Both the position numbers and the translations under genes were made by a program. 64,000 nt of DNA from Bdellovibrio sp. BCCA (lineage in GTDB: Bacteria > Bdellovibrionota > Bdellovibrionia > Bdellovibrionales > Bdellovibrionaceae), in assembly GCF_037996825.1 (NCBI RefSeq), contig NZ_JBBNAC010000001.1:372001-436000 (forward strand), given 5' to 3'. How positions within the stretch are numbered: the stretch's first letter is position 1; each line of letters begins with the position of its first letter. Shown piece after piece: positions 57,952 through 62,402 of the stretch. Under the pieces are notes generated by a model, which had not been told where the DNA came from, ran no database searches, and saw nothing but the letters and a program-made list of their open reading frames with translations.

Positions 57952-60630
57952 TTATTGGAAACGAGTCAAAGCATCACGCAAAGACTCCAGTTGGATCTTG
58001 GACTGAGCTAACAAAGCCTTATCCGCTGCTACAACTTCTTCGTCGGCATTCGCAATAAACTTCTCGTTTGAAAGTTTACCAGAAAGCATAGTGATGTCTT
58101 TTTGAAGTTTTTCGATCAACTTGTTGATGCGTTTTACTTCTTCATCAAAATCGACCAAGCCTTCAAGCGGGATGATCACTTTCACATTCGTGTCTTTCAC
58201 CACAACCGGAGCGACAGCGCACTTCATCAGGTTGCCTTCTTCTCCGATTTCAAGATTCTCAACACGTCCCATTGTCAAAATAGCCGTGCGGTTGTTGCCC
58301 AAGATTTTTTGAACTTGGTCATTTGTCACACCCAAACGCACGTTGATTTTTACAGCCGGGCTGATGCGGTTTTCACCACGAATGTTACGAATCGCCGTGA
58401 TCACTTCCTTCACGATATCGATTTCAAGAGCCGCTTGAGCAGAGCCCAGGCTTAGGAATTCTTTATCGTTACGTGTATTCGGGAACTGGTCCACGATACA
58501 AGCCGTGCCTTTGATCGGAAGCTTTTGGTAAATCTCTTCTGAAATAAACGGAGCAAATGGATGCAACAAGCGCATCATGCGATTCAAAACTTGCGCAATC
58601 ACAAGTTGAGTCGCTTGTTTTTCTTCCATGTTGTTGCCGTTCATGATTGGTTTTGTAAATTCAATGTACCAATCGCAGAACTGATTCCAAATAAATTGGT
58701 AAAGAGCATTGGCAGCGTCAGAGAATCTTTCGCCTTCCATTGCTTCTTCCACTTCTTTTGTGACCTCTGCCAACTTTGTGATGATCCATTGGTCAAACAC
58801 ACTGATTTGGCCTTTGTTTGGAAGGGCTTTCACACCTTCCGCAGGCACTTTGAAGTCAGCAAGATTTGAAAGCGCGAAACGAGCCGCATTCCAGATCTTG
58901 TTCATAAAGTTTCTGTAGCCTTCAAGACGTTGTTCACTGAATTTAAAATCTTTTCCAGAGTACAAGTGAGCCGCGAATGTAAAGCGCAAAGCATCTGCTC
59001 CGTACTTTTCAATCATCTCAACCGGATCGACAGAGTTGCCCAAAGACTTAGACATCTTGCGACCTTGAGAGTCACGCACCAGACCGTGGATGTAAACTGT
59101 GCGGAACGGAACATCACGTTTGAACTCAAGACCCATCATGATCATACGAGCCACCCAGAAGAAGATGATATCGTGACCAGTCACCAAGTAACTTGTTGGG
59201 TAGAATGTTTTCAGAGTTTCAGTCTCTGTCGGCCAACCCATTGTTGAGAACGGCCAAAGAGCCGAACTAAACCATGTATCCAAAACGTCTTCGTCTTGAG
59301 TCAGTTTCGTGTTTCCGCATTTTTCACAAGCGGTCACATCTGTTTCGCTCACGTTTTGGTGATGGCAGTTCGTGCAATACCAAACCGGAATGCGGTGACC
59401 CCACCACAATTGACGAGAAATACACCAGTCTTCGATGTTGTTCAGCCAGTGCAAGTATACTTTTGTCCAAGATTCCGGTTCAAAACGAATTGTGCCGCTT
59501 TCAACAACGCGTTTTGCGGGCGTTGCAAGCTGCTCCATTTTTACAAACCACTGCTCAGACAAGAAAGGCTCAACAACTGCGCCCGAACGAGAGCAGTGAC
59601 CTACTGAGTGAACATAAGGTTCTTCTTTTTCAAGAAGGTTTTGTGCTTTTAAATCTTCCAACACGCGCTTACGAGCTTCTTGAACTTTCAAGCCTTGGTA
59701 AGGACCTGCGTTTTCGTTCATCTCTGCTTTTTTTGTCAGAATGTTGATGAACTCCAAGTGATGAGTTTTACCGATTTTATAATCGTTAAAGTCATGCGCC
59801 GGAGTGATTTTCACAACGCCCGAACCGAAAGCCTTATCAACGTAAGTGTCTGCGATGATTTTTATCTTTCTGTTGATCAAAGGAACGATCACGTTTTTGC
59901 CGATCAAATGTTTATAGCGTTCATCATCTGGATTTACGCAAAGAGCGGTATCGCCCAGCATTGTTTCAGGACGAGTTGTTGCGACAATCAAGAAACCAGA
60001 ACCATCTTCAAGTGGATACTTGATGTGATAAAGGGAACCCTTGATTTGTTTGTGTTCAACTTCCAAATCGGAAATCGCTGTCTCAAGAGGGCCTGACCAG
60101 TTCACCAGGCGTTGACCACGGTAGATCAAACCTTTTTTGTGAAGGCTCACGAAAACTTTGCGAACGGCTTTAGAAACGCCTTCATCCAATGTGAAAACGG
60201 CGCGTTCCCAATCGCAAGAGTCACCAAGACGGCGCATTTGTGAATAAATACGATCGCCATATTGATGTTTCCACTCCCACACTTTGCCTACGAATTTTTC
60301 ACGGCCTAATTCATGACGAGTGATATTTTCTTTTTTAAGTTCTCTTTCAACAACCGATTGAGTTGCGATGCCCGCGTGATCCGTTCCTGGCAACCACATT
60401 GTGTTGTAACCATTCATGCGCTTCCAACGAATGAGCATGTCTTGAATCGTGTGATCCAAAGCGTGACCCATGTGCAAGAAACCTGTGACGTTCGGTGGAG
60501 GAAGGATGATTGAAAACGGAGGTTTTGTGGACTGATCTTGTGCTTTGAAGTATCCAGCATTCTCCCACCATTGATAGGTACGAGTTTCCACGTCTGCGGG
60601 ATTGTAACGATCGGATAATTGTTCTGACAT
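57952..60630 (-). CDS. valS: Valyl-tRNA synthetase
   Basis: An 892-residue class I aminoacyl-tRNA synthetase that charges tRNA-Val. The HIGH-type motif is PPPNVTGFLHMGHALD (about residues 44-59), the editing (CP1) domain includes ATTRPETMLGDTA (about 220), and KMSKSLGNSVDP is near 540. A zinc-ribbon-like CTNC...CEKCG lies near 425. The anticodon-binding domain follows with WNQFCDWYIEFTKP, and a C-terminal coiled coil closes the protein (VKRINKLIEKLQKDI, about 835). Length and motif order are normal. A 132-bp inverted-repeat element lies about 110 bp upstream. Confidence 0.97.
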   Translation of the reverse strand: MSEQLSDRYNPADVETRTYQWWENAGYFKAQDQSTKPPFSIILPPPNVTGFLHMGHALDHTIQDMLIRWKRMNGYNTMWLPGTDHAGIATQSVVERELKKENITRHELGREKFVGKVWEWKHQYGDRIYSQMRRLGDSCDWERAVFTLDEGVSKAVRKVFVSLHKKGLIYRGQRLVNWSGPLETAISDLEVEHKQIKGSLYHIKYPLEDGSGFLIVATTRPETMLGDTALCVNPDDERYKHLIGKNVIVPLINRKIKIIADTYVDKAFGSGVVKITPAHDFNDYKIGKTHHLEFINILTKKAEMNENAGPYQGLKVQEARKRVLEDLKAQNLLEKEEPYVHSVGHCSRSGAVVEPFLSEQWFVKMEQLATPAKRVVESGTIRFEPESWTKVYLHWLNNIEDWCISRQLWWGHRIPVWYCTNCHHQNVSETDVTACEKCGNTKLTQDEDVLDTWFSSALWPFSTMGWPTETETLKTFYPTSYLVTGHDIIFFWVARMIMMGLEFKRDVPFRTVYIHGLVRDSQGRKMSKSLGNSVDPVEMIEKYGADALRFTFAAHLYSGKDFKFSEQRLEGYRNFMNKIWNAARFALSNLADFKVPAEGVKALPNKGQISVFDQWIITKLAEVTKEVEEAMEGERFSDAANALYQFIWNQFCDWYIEFTKPIMNGNNMEEKQATQLVIAQVLNRMMRLLHPFAPFISEEIYQKLPIKGTACIVDQFPNTRNDKEFLSLGSAQAALEIDIVKEVITAIRNIRGENRISPAVKINVRLGVTNDQVQKILGNNRTAILTMGRVENLEIGEEGNLMKCAVAPVVVKDTNVKVIIPLEGLVDFDEEVKRINKLIEKLQKDITMLSGKLSNEKFIANADEEVVAADKALLAQSKIQLESLRDALTRFQ

Positions 60631-60738
60631 TTGAAGACCTCTAACTCATTTAAGAACACGAAATACTGGGACTTTTAAACCCTTTGAGAGTAACAAACTT
60701 GAGGCTTGTTTTGTAGGCTTAATGCGGGGGTAAGACCC

Positions 60739-60870
60739 ATAAAATCCCGTCTGAGTTTTAAACCCAGACCTCGTCCGCTCGGACAGTCCTCGCAGACGCC
60801 GTCCCGTTGGGACTGGCTGCTGTGGAACTCGCTCCCGCGGCCCGGGTTTAAAACTCAAACGGGATTTTAT
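60739..60870 (-). ncRNA. Large structured inverted-repeat element upstream of valS
   Basis: Two 27-bp arms (60739-60765 and 60844-60870) are complementary except at one position, which is a G-U wobble when read on the minus strand. That favours an RNA on the valS strand. The 78-bp interior is GC-rich and has its own stems: GTCC-GAGC-GGAC, GTCCC-AAC-GGGAC and CCCGGG/CCGCGG-type pairing. It could be a 5'-UTR regulator of valS, a separate RNA, or a dispersed palindromic repeat. It is GC-richer than its surroundings. Confidence 0.55.
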
Positions 60871-61050
60871 TGGTTTCCTCGATAAATTCAAAAACTGCAG
60901 TTGTTGCATGGTTTAATAACTGAAGCATTGCGGCGATCTTAGTGGAGACGCGGCATAAATTCAGATTTTAAAAGCTTACGTTATCGTTCCCAAGACTGAT
61001 GGATGGATGATTTTAACTCCGCTCAAAGAAGAGAGTGGTTTCAAAAATGC

Positions 61051-61116
61051 AAAAGCGAATCAGGCCTTTGCCAGACTCGCTTTTGGTGGATCTCCTGTCC
61101 GAAAACTTACAGGAGG
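61051..61116 (+). promoter_or_regulatory. Two-hairpin leader that masks the ribosome site of a 30-codon ORF
   Basis: Stem 1 is AAAAGCGA (61051-61058) with TCGCTTTT (61077-61084), enclosing GGC-CTTT-GCC. Stem 2 is CTCCTGT (61092-61098) with ACAGGAG (61109-61115). The second strand of stem 2 contains the AGGAGG ribosome site of the ORF at 61123. This is the layout of a translational switch or an attenuated leader, but no known riboswitch class was recognised. Confidence 0.5.
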
Positions 61117-61122
61117 TGTCCG

Positions 61123-61215
61123 ATGCGTAAAACAACCTACTTACGTATTCGACGCGTTTTGAAGATTACTAAAGGGTTTTTGATTATTTCGACTATTGTC
61201 GAGTCTTGGAAATAA
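61123..61215 (+). CDS. Small cationic, membrane-active-looking 30-residue peptide
   Basis: A 30-codon ORF with a very strong ribosome site (ACAGGAGGTG, six to seven bases before the ATG). The peptide begins MRKTTYLRIRRVLKITK and ends GFLIISTIVESWK. It has eight basic residues against one acidic, and a hydrophobic C-terminal half, resembling type I toxin peptides or short membrane proteins. It is followed directly by a strong terminator, so the transcription unit is only about 200 bp. The ribosome site is buried in a hairpin. No homologue is recognised; coding status rests on the ribosome site and the compact unit. Confidence 0.5.
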   Translation: MRKTTYLRIRRVLKITKGFLIISTIVESWK

Positions 61216-61246
61216 AAAAAGGGAGATTTGTTGATCTCCCTTTTTT
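61215..61246. terminator. Rho-independent terminator, usable on both strands
   Basis: GGGAGAT (61221-61227) pairs with ATCTCCC (61234-61240) around TTGTTG, with AAAAAA before and TTTTTT after. It ends the 30-codon unit and the converging outer-membrane protein gene. Confidence 0.92.
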
Positions 61247-61262
61247 GCTTTTATTAATCAGC

Positions 61263-62300
61263 TTACTTCAAGAAATCTGCTAGCAAGCGGGCGCCTACTA
61301 CGAATTCGTCTCTGACTGTTTTGTCGGCTACACCATCAAGATCGCCTGTTGTGTTGTTGTAGGCGAAGTGGTAGCGGAAGTTTGTGTCAGTGTATGGTTT
61401 GTATTCAGCAACTACACCGTAAGCGATGTATTTGTTTGTTCTGTCAGTGACGCCGCCGATTTTTTCTTCTGTTGAGATCACTTCAAGGCGTGGTGTCCAT
61501 TGTTCCCAACCTGTGTAAGCCAATTTTCCTACGAATGAAGATTCAGAATCTTTGAAACCTGTTGCGTCGGCTTTGAATTCGCCCATCAAGTAGTCAAGTG
61601 ATGCAGAGATCGGGCTTGAGTTCCACATAACACCCGCTGCGATGAATTGGTGTTTGTCGTCTTTCGCCGGGCCGGCAAGAGTGTGATAGCTCAAGTTGAA
61701 GTTCAAGGCTTTTTCTAGGAAAGCGCCTCTCCAGATCACGCCCCACATGCTTGAGTTTTGTGATGCTGTTGGACCTGCTTTTGTGTCAGGTTCGTTCGTT
61801 GCCAGAACATGGATTTGTTGGCCGTCGAAAGAGAAAGTTCCCTTCACGCCAGTCATATAAAGAAGATCTTTTGTGCCAAGAAGAGTCGTAGAAGCTCCTG
61901 TTGGAGTGTAGAACGGAGAAGTTAAGTACAAATCAGCGCCGCTTGTAGCGCCTTCGAAGCCGCCGAATTCAGTGTTGAATTTACCAGCTGTCAAAGTGAA
62001 AAGATCAGACATCTTATGTGACAAGTACGCGTACTCAACAGCTGTTTGAGAAGCATCAACACCGCGAGTGGCGTCTTTGTTGAATGCTAAGCGCACGCGG
62101 AAAGTAAGATCTTCAAGAGCTTTACCTTGGTAATCAAGACGACCCGTTTTGAAATAAAACTTCGTCTGATCTGTCGATCCCGGAGTGTCTTTAAATGTTG
62201 TGGAGTTATAGTCTGCACGCATGTCCAGACTCAAAGAGCCCGCGTGTGCCGCTGTTGTCATGGCTGTCATCGCCAACGTTGCAATCAAAAACTTTTTCAT
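61263..62300 (-). CDS. Outer-membrane barrel protein, paralogue of the 40884 gene
   Basis: A 345-residue outer-membrane protein. The start is set at the ATG with AAGGA before it, 14 codons inside the longest frame, giving the signal peptide KKFLIATLAMTAMTTAAHA. The barrel is Thr/Gly/Asp-rich with strands such as LSLDMRADYNST, KFYFKTGRLDYQG, LNFNLSYHTLAG and ISASLDYLMGEF. It resembles the barrel at 40884 in length, in the LTAGKFNTEFGG versus FTAGKLQVNVGG strand, and near the C-terminus (NFRYHFAYN). Codon use is again restricted, suggesting strong expression. It ends in LADFLK. Confidence 0.82.
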   Translation of the reverse strand: MKKFLIATLAMTAMTTAAHAGSLSLDMRADYNSTTFKDTPGSTDQTKFYFKTGRLDYQGKALEDLTFRVRLAFNKDATRGVDASQTAVEYAYLSHKMSDLFTLTAGKFNTEFGGFEGATSGADLYLTSPFYTPTGASTTLLGTKDLLYMTGVKGTFSFDGQQIHVLATNEPDTKAGPTASQNSSMWGVIWRGAFLEKALNFNLSYHTLAGPAKDDKHQFIAAGVMWNSSPISASLDYLMGEFKADATGFKDSESSFVGKLAYTGWEQWTPRLEVISTEEKIGGVTDRTNKYIAYGVVAEYKPYTDTNFRYHFAYNNTTGDLDGVADKTVRDEFVVGARLLADFLK

Positions 62301-62402
62301 TGGTACATCCTTGTTTAAAGTTTTAGGTTTTCGAATGTACATAGTATGTTACAAACAACGGCTGCCGCCAAGGACGCTTTAATTTATTTTGTCAGTTGGC
62401 TT

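Follow-up and report, generated by a model that had tools for sequence, protein, structure and literature searches.

A previously undescribed family of tiny genes, scattered through the genomes of Bdellovibrio and its relatives, was identified in which the full members share one conserved small open reading frame (ORF), carried by an RNA whose two alternative folds exclude each other and covary separately. The family was recognized from a copy in a window of 64,000 nucleotides from Bdellovibrio sp. BCCA (contig NZ_JBBNAC010000001.1, positions 372,001 to 436,000), and the favored reading, held with moderate confidence, is that the full copies are switch mRNAs encoding a membrane-type peptide that is helical and cationic and that the window copy is probably a decaying relic. 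The comparative signal is unusually clear in that both of the exclusive folds covary over dozens of divergent copies.

Distribution of the family

A DNA search of the genome carrying the window copy gave three further copies at 86-92% identity, and an alignment of 27 copies was used for a covariance model with stems I-III that detected six copies in this genome, the window copy included. The other five, which are intact, lie near 12.6, 247.9, 272.1, 672.5, and 2575.7 kb. The model matched 16 of 24 Bdellovibrio genomes and, within the phylum, 42 of 369 genomes, every one of which belongs to the order Bdellovibrionales, and the named records with the family belong to Bdellovibrio and Pseudobdellovibrio. 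For analysis, 89 copies were extracted and aligned. A pattern scan of GTDB with the 3' motif returned, beyond these two genera, only one match in Pseudanabaena that was accompanied by no leader match and was taken as chance, and no matches were found in phage and plasmid collections (by protein) or viral contigs (by 3' motif). A further match to the 3' domain (G009:C11:200913-200987; E 3e-8), in a genome with no leader match, is probably a 5'-truncated remnant.

Rfam 15 had no match to the window at the gathering score and nothing in a search to E<=5, and the five loci with full copies gave chance-level matches only. The earlier note had known of no described equivalent, and this held for the family databases and for the open-access literature, in which no earlier description of the family was found, absence there not being proof. 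Profile searches with the peptide gave no match in Pfam, NCBIfam, or PHROGs, a PDB search returned only designed proteins (E 0.6-0.7), and PADLOC gave one weak match in 1 of 25 members (E 0.0098). The small-protein family is new to the family libraries searched, and its product is a candidate toxin or regulator for Bdellovibrio.

Anatomy of full copies and the encoded peptide

A full copy spans ~300 nt and runs from a 5' GG through stems I-III and an ORF of 28-45 amino acids to a conserved 3' domain of ~100 nt. The 5' end is sharp, with G at -8 (87%) and -7 (97%) before AAATGC and almost no information upstream of the GG except a weak A at -15, and no clear signal of a conserved promoter was seen across copies upstream of this boundary. 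The 3' domain contains CUCCAACGUGUACA and GGACCAAGGNNGGGACUUAAAAUCCC among other motifs and terminates in about GC-R-C-Y. Its model (R2) uses sequence only, RNAalifold on the 3' domain alone having yielded no consensus pairs across families, and matches downstream of most leader matches, including five of the six copies in the genome of the window copy, which is itself the sole exception. Another small hairpin element (..TTTTTCGCGC..AGCCCCGAAGGGG..GGCAGGA..) was apparently inserted inside family copies, 5' of stem I in L035, L039, and L092 (stem I being left in place) and in the 3' domain in L042.

The ORF is retained at 28-45 codons in 80 of the 89 copies, and the Shine-Dalgarno (SD) sequence and start codon are kept in nearly all of them. 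The peptides share a hydrophilic start followed by the pattern [YF]RRxLKIxKxxLxIxLLxLxII, and dN/dS outside stem III was ~0.26 (dN 0.33, dS 1.27; Nei-Gojobori) in 14 sequences of the subfamily of the window copy, with the latter left out. The family ORF is coding and under purifying selection. The AlphaFold2 model of the peptide is a single helix (mean pLDDT 89.5), and a helical, cationic, membrane-type product of roughly 35 residues is predicted; the cationic and then hydrophobic character that had earlier been read from the window ORF was borne out at the family level, with a mean net charge of +5.8. The most likely site of action would be a membrane, where the peptide would serve as a type I toxin or stress peptide. 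Premature ORF ends in L014, L031, L038, L098, and L103 were attributed to decay of family members.

Conservation of motifs in the 3' domain, CUCCAACGUGUACA and GGACCAAGGNNGGGACUUAAAAUCCC among them, together with structure that runs from almost the first base of the element through to its last, would also suit an RNA that acts by itself, as a ligand sensor or a structured regulator, with an incidental ORF. This is very improbable, however, because the peptide is conserved (dN/dS 0.26) even where the nucleotide sequences diverge and is modeled as a helix, and because its start codon and SD are retained in nearly all copies.

Two mutually exclusive folds

Column counts for stems I-III gave double changes in 19 of 32 pairs, with 85% of cells paired vs. 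38-49% when the partners were slid. The loop and 3' half of stem I are also complementary to the 3' end of the element, with which they form a long-range helix (in subfamily A, 88.6% of cells paired vs. 32-48% when slid). Pairing was further evaluated by a swap test in which each copy's own partner was compared with partners exchanged between copies (39 dereplicated copies, 5000 permutations). With the caveat that pairing partners were picked by energy and that the copies are related, dereplication not having weakened the result, the test gave z -17.3 for stem I, z -7.9 for stem II, z -19.0 for the long-range helix (own partner best in 28 of 39), and z -9.8 for the pairing between the 3' domain and the anti-SD strand of stem II, with none of the 5000 permutations as extreme in each case. 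Controls pairing the SD with the ORF and the long-range segment with the ORF gave z +2.7 and z -1.4, respectively. Stem III had z -9.1 over all copies and was not significant within subfamily A.

The two sets of folds cannot coexist because stem I shares bases with the long-range helix and stem II with the 3'-domain pairing. The layout seen in the window is beyond chance because the 89 copies retain it with compensatory changes; conservation of the ORF and stems in relatives, on which the earlier note had staked its reading, is present.

A proposed translational switch

The predicted cost of opening the SD had medians of 8.4 kcal/mol for the RNA up to the stop codon, 5.7 kcal/mol at full length, and 5.2 kcal/mol in the closed fold, and, with the constraints applied, 67 of 68 copies favored the closed fold over the open one. 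In the proposed mechanism, stems I and II would form first in the nascent RNA and bury the SD, keeping it silent, after which the completed 3' end would invade stem I via its loop and the 3' domain would capture the anti-SD strand of stem II, leaving the SD loosened and easier to open. Translation would then require the 3' end to be intact and would cease upon 3' trimming. The ON/OFF direction derives from folding energies and is a thermodynamic prediction, and in several copies of subfamily A a CCUCC in the 3'UTR can re-mask the SD, counting against the ON direction. Re-masking of the SD by the 3'UTR was not supported as a family-wide feature: the SD with the CCUCC after the ORF gave z -3.6 in subfamily A and z -0.9 in the whole family, where covariation is hard to test since both SD and CUCC are near-constant.

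The family resembles type I toxin mRNAs in general design and, by this analogy, is a candidate for membership in the type I toxin-antitoxin (TA) systems. Toxins of such systems are small and usually membrane-active peptides, a type to which the predicted helix with its mean charge of +5.8 conforms. Sequestration of the SD in the primary transcript, by which such systems are recognized, was found in the form of the covarying stem II, with a predicted opening cost of ~8 kcal/mol in the nascent RNA. The tisB, ldr, and ibs genes encode short helical membrane-type peptides, occur in multiple or tandem copies, and have their translation limited by RNA structure; the family is alike in its predicted short helical membrane-type peptide, its multicopy and tandem occurrence, and its predicted structure-limited translation, but differs in being dispersed with sharp element ends, and no match to the family was detected among them. 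In hok, translation of the toxin is coupled to an overlapping leader ORF (mok-like). The family and hok/Sok have in common a whole-mRNA 5'-3' pairing and an alternative 5' hairpin that are mutually exclusive, whereas the metastable hairpin of hok is not directly SD-masking (PMC6733600), as stem II of the family is. The aapA/IsoA systems of Helicobacter likewise have several chromosomal copies of a gene for a small toxic-type peptide, with the SD masked by an upstream anti-SD hairpin (PMC6733600). A further likeness is that the full-length mRNA can instead pair over a long distance between its 5' and 3' ends (z -19 in the family, with no more than a short remnant left in the window copy). The aapA/IsoA systems differ in belonging to another phylum with no peptide homology detected, and while the full-length closed aapA mRNA is inert and activated by 3' trimming (PMC6733600), the 3' domain of the family would capture the anti-SD strand and not clearly mask the SD, such that the polarity looks reversed.

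These likenesses raise a rather unlikely alternative, namely a type I TA locus with aapA/hok polarity in which the CCUCC of the 3'UTR would hold the SD and the full-length closed RNA would be inert, stems I and II would serve as metastable guards during transcription, translation would be activated by 3' trimming, and the antitoxin would be an antisense RNA arising within the ORF. It is consistent with aapA3, in which an upstream anti-SD hairpin is also followed by a 5'-3' long-distance interaction (PMC6733600), with the CCUCC opposite the SD in the 3'UTR of subfamily A and the CUCC common 3' of the ORF across families, and with the multicopy nature of the family, including the tandem arrangement in G051 and the cluster of three in G017. 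However, 3' trimming would restore the SD-masking stem II, and the pairing of SD and 3'UTR lacks family-wide covariation. The search for an antisense RNA like that of aapA/IsoA covered promoter-like signals, which were weak in the family: antisense sigma-70-like scores within the ORF slightly exceeded those of codon-shuffled sequences (7.7 vs. 7.0, p 0.002), in favor of this alternative, but the excess is partly explained by Ile codons. If the preferred reading of the full copies as switch mRNAs is true, structure-controlled small-peptide mRNAs, possibly type I TA-like, would be extended to predatory bacteria, and the family would offer a defined, testable system for co-transcriptional translation control.

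Dispersal and probable mobility

Of 68 classifiable copies, 33 lay in convergent gene gaps and 6 in divergent ones, and orientation in codirectional gaps was unbiased (16 vs. 13), on which ground readthrough from upstream genes was rejected. The genes beside inspected copies were ordinary-looking and different from copy to copy. Some mobility of the family is likely because a site occupied by the element in G002 and G023 has none in G006. Tandem copies lie 368 nt apart in G051:C12 (L112), and the three-copy cluster in G017:C10 (L096) has a spacing of ~2 kb with ordinary-looking genes between the copies.

Miniature inverted-repeat transposable elements (MITEs) and IS200/IS605-derived non-autonomous elements are short, dispersed, and intergenic with a hairpin near the end, features that are shared by the family. 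Such elements have terminal inverted repeats or, at both ends, subterminal hairpins, and a transposase moves them in trans. A non-autonomous mobile DNA element of MITE-like or IS200/IS605-like type, with the hairpins as transposition ends and the ORF as a passenger, is conceivable though not the expected explanation. The sharp element ends, unrelated flanks, mostly convergent intergenic sites, and unbiased codirectional orientation point in this direction, as do the element-free site in G006 vs. G002 and G023, the opposite orientations of copies at one site (between valS and a porin-like gene), and the finding that the window copy is most closely related to other copies from the same genome. 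The family nevertheless differs from such elements in its selected ORF and RNA-level covariation, the covarying SD and anti-SD being sensible only in a translated RNA; moreover, the 5'-3' complementarity is not terminal, being preceded at the 5' end by ~25 nt of conserved sequence, and no linked transposase was seen in the neighborhoods inspected. Inspection by eye showed no terminal inverted repeat longer than about two bases. Mobility and RNA function can be compatible, and it is tentatively proposed that the family may represent a self-contained mobile mRNA element of a new class, so far only in Bdellovibrionales, in which the finished 3' end would turn translation ON by taking over the anti-SD strand, with a polarity opposite to hok and aapA. 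If true, this would constitute a built-in check by which the membrane peptide is made from intact full-length RNA only.

The window copy

The window copy is a truncated element between a gene that is presumably valS and a porin-like gene, whose function is suggested by sequence (Table 1). It is 86% identical to L037 of the same genome, and the whole 211-nt stretch had a fold z of -6.7 vs. shuffles. The two stems described earlier 5' of the ORF were corroborated and covary in the family, the second being formed by AUCUCCUGU paired with ACAGGAGGU with the AGGAGG buried within it.

Table 1. Features of the window copy and its neighbors (coordinates in the window).
Feature	Coordinates	Strand	Evidence and remarks
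Presumed valS (valyl-tRNA synthetase)	57952..60630	-	ORF; orthologues 88-95% protein identity
Element, truncated copy	61037..61209	+	From GG 5' boundary (61037-61038) to likely remnant of 3' long-range strand; aligned with 88 other copies
Stem I	61050..61085	+	-16.6 kcal/mol, z -4.6; covariation
Long-range helix, 5' segment	61064..61079	+	Stem I loop and 3' half; partner in full copies is the element's 3' end
Stem II	61090..61117	+	Anti-SD strand 61090-61098, SD strand 61109-61117; -10.3 kcal/mol, z -2.95
Shine-Dalgarno AGGAGG	61111..61116	+	6 nt upstream of ATG; sequence
Stem III	61121..61151	+	Spans start codon and first codons; -7.9 kcal/mol; absent from the earlier note
ORF, 30 codons, MRKTTYLRIRRVLKITKGFLIISTIVESWK	61123..61215	+	Net charge +7
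CGAGTCTTGG	61200..61209	+	Resembles GAGTCTGG ends of full copies
Perfect terminator hairpin, bidirectional, of the porin-like gene	61215..61246	.	-17.3 kcal/mol, z -4.9
Outer-membrane porin-like gene (putative)	61263..62342	-	ORF; orthologues

Compared with intact family ORFs, the N-terminal part of the window ORF is typical and the C-terminal part altered, the peptide diverging after ...KGFLII and its hydropathy being lower (best 18-residue mean 1.2 vs. a family mean of 2.2). The alteration is probably the result of a deletion, and CGAGTCTTGG is likely a remnant of the 3' long-range strand moved beside the ORF by an internal deletion. The perfect terminator hairpin directly after the ORF, as noted earlier, does exist, but it belongs to the porin-like gene because a similar hairpin is present in element-free relatives: in most members of the genus the gap between valS and the porin-like gene holds no element, yet a similar bidirectional terminator lies beside the porin stop codon. 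In the same gap, full copies occur in G007 (same orientation) and G003 (opposite orientation) and a remnant in G014. The complete miniature transcription unit that had been proposed for this locus was not supported, with the 3' domain missing, the C-terminus altered, the terminator owned by the neighboring gene, and no conserved promoter upstream of the 5' boundary.

The predicted cost of opening the SD of the window copy stayed within 9.0-9.7 kcal/mol whether the RNA was nascent, full-length, closed, or open, and with the 3' domain and part of the C-terminus missing its SD should remain masked. Its closest relatives are two copies in the same genome, and its terminal branch is 0.14 compared with 0.04-0.08 in the three nearest copies there. 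The window copy is most likely a decaying relic with stems and N-terminus still intact. A shortened working variant, repressed by stem II and freed by a trans-acting factor, would account for the intact stems I-III and N-terminal peptide and for an in-frame ORF that ends just before the terminator, yet it is improbable in view of the altered, less hydrophobic C-terminus, the longer terminal branch, and the absence of the 3' domain, which the other five copies of the genome all carry. The idea of a switchable small-protein gene thus passes to the family, whose design it fits, and not to the probably decayed relic in the window. The gap between valS and the porin-like gene also holds a long inverted repeat at 60735-60874 (39-nt arms, 87% complementary, 62-nt loop), and large palindromes of apparently unrelated sequence occupy the same gap in G001 and G019.
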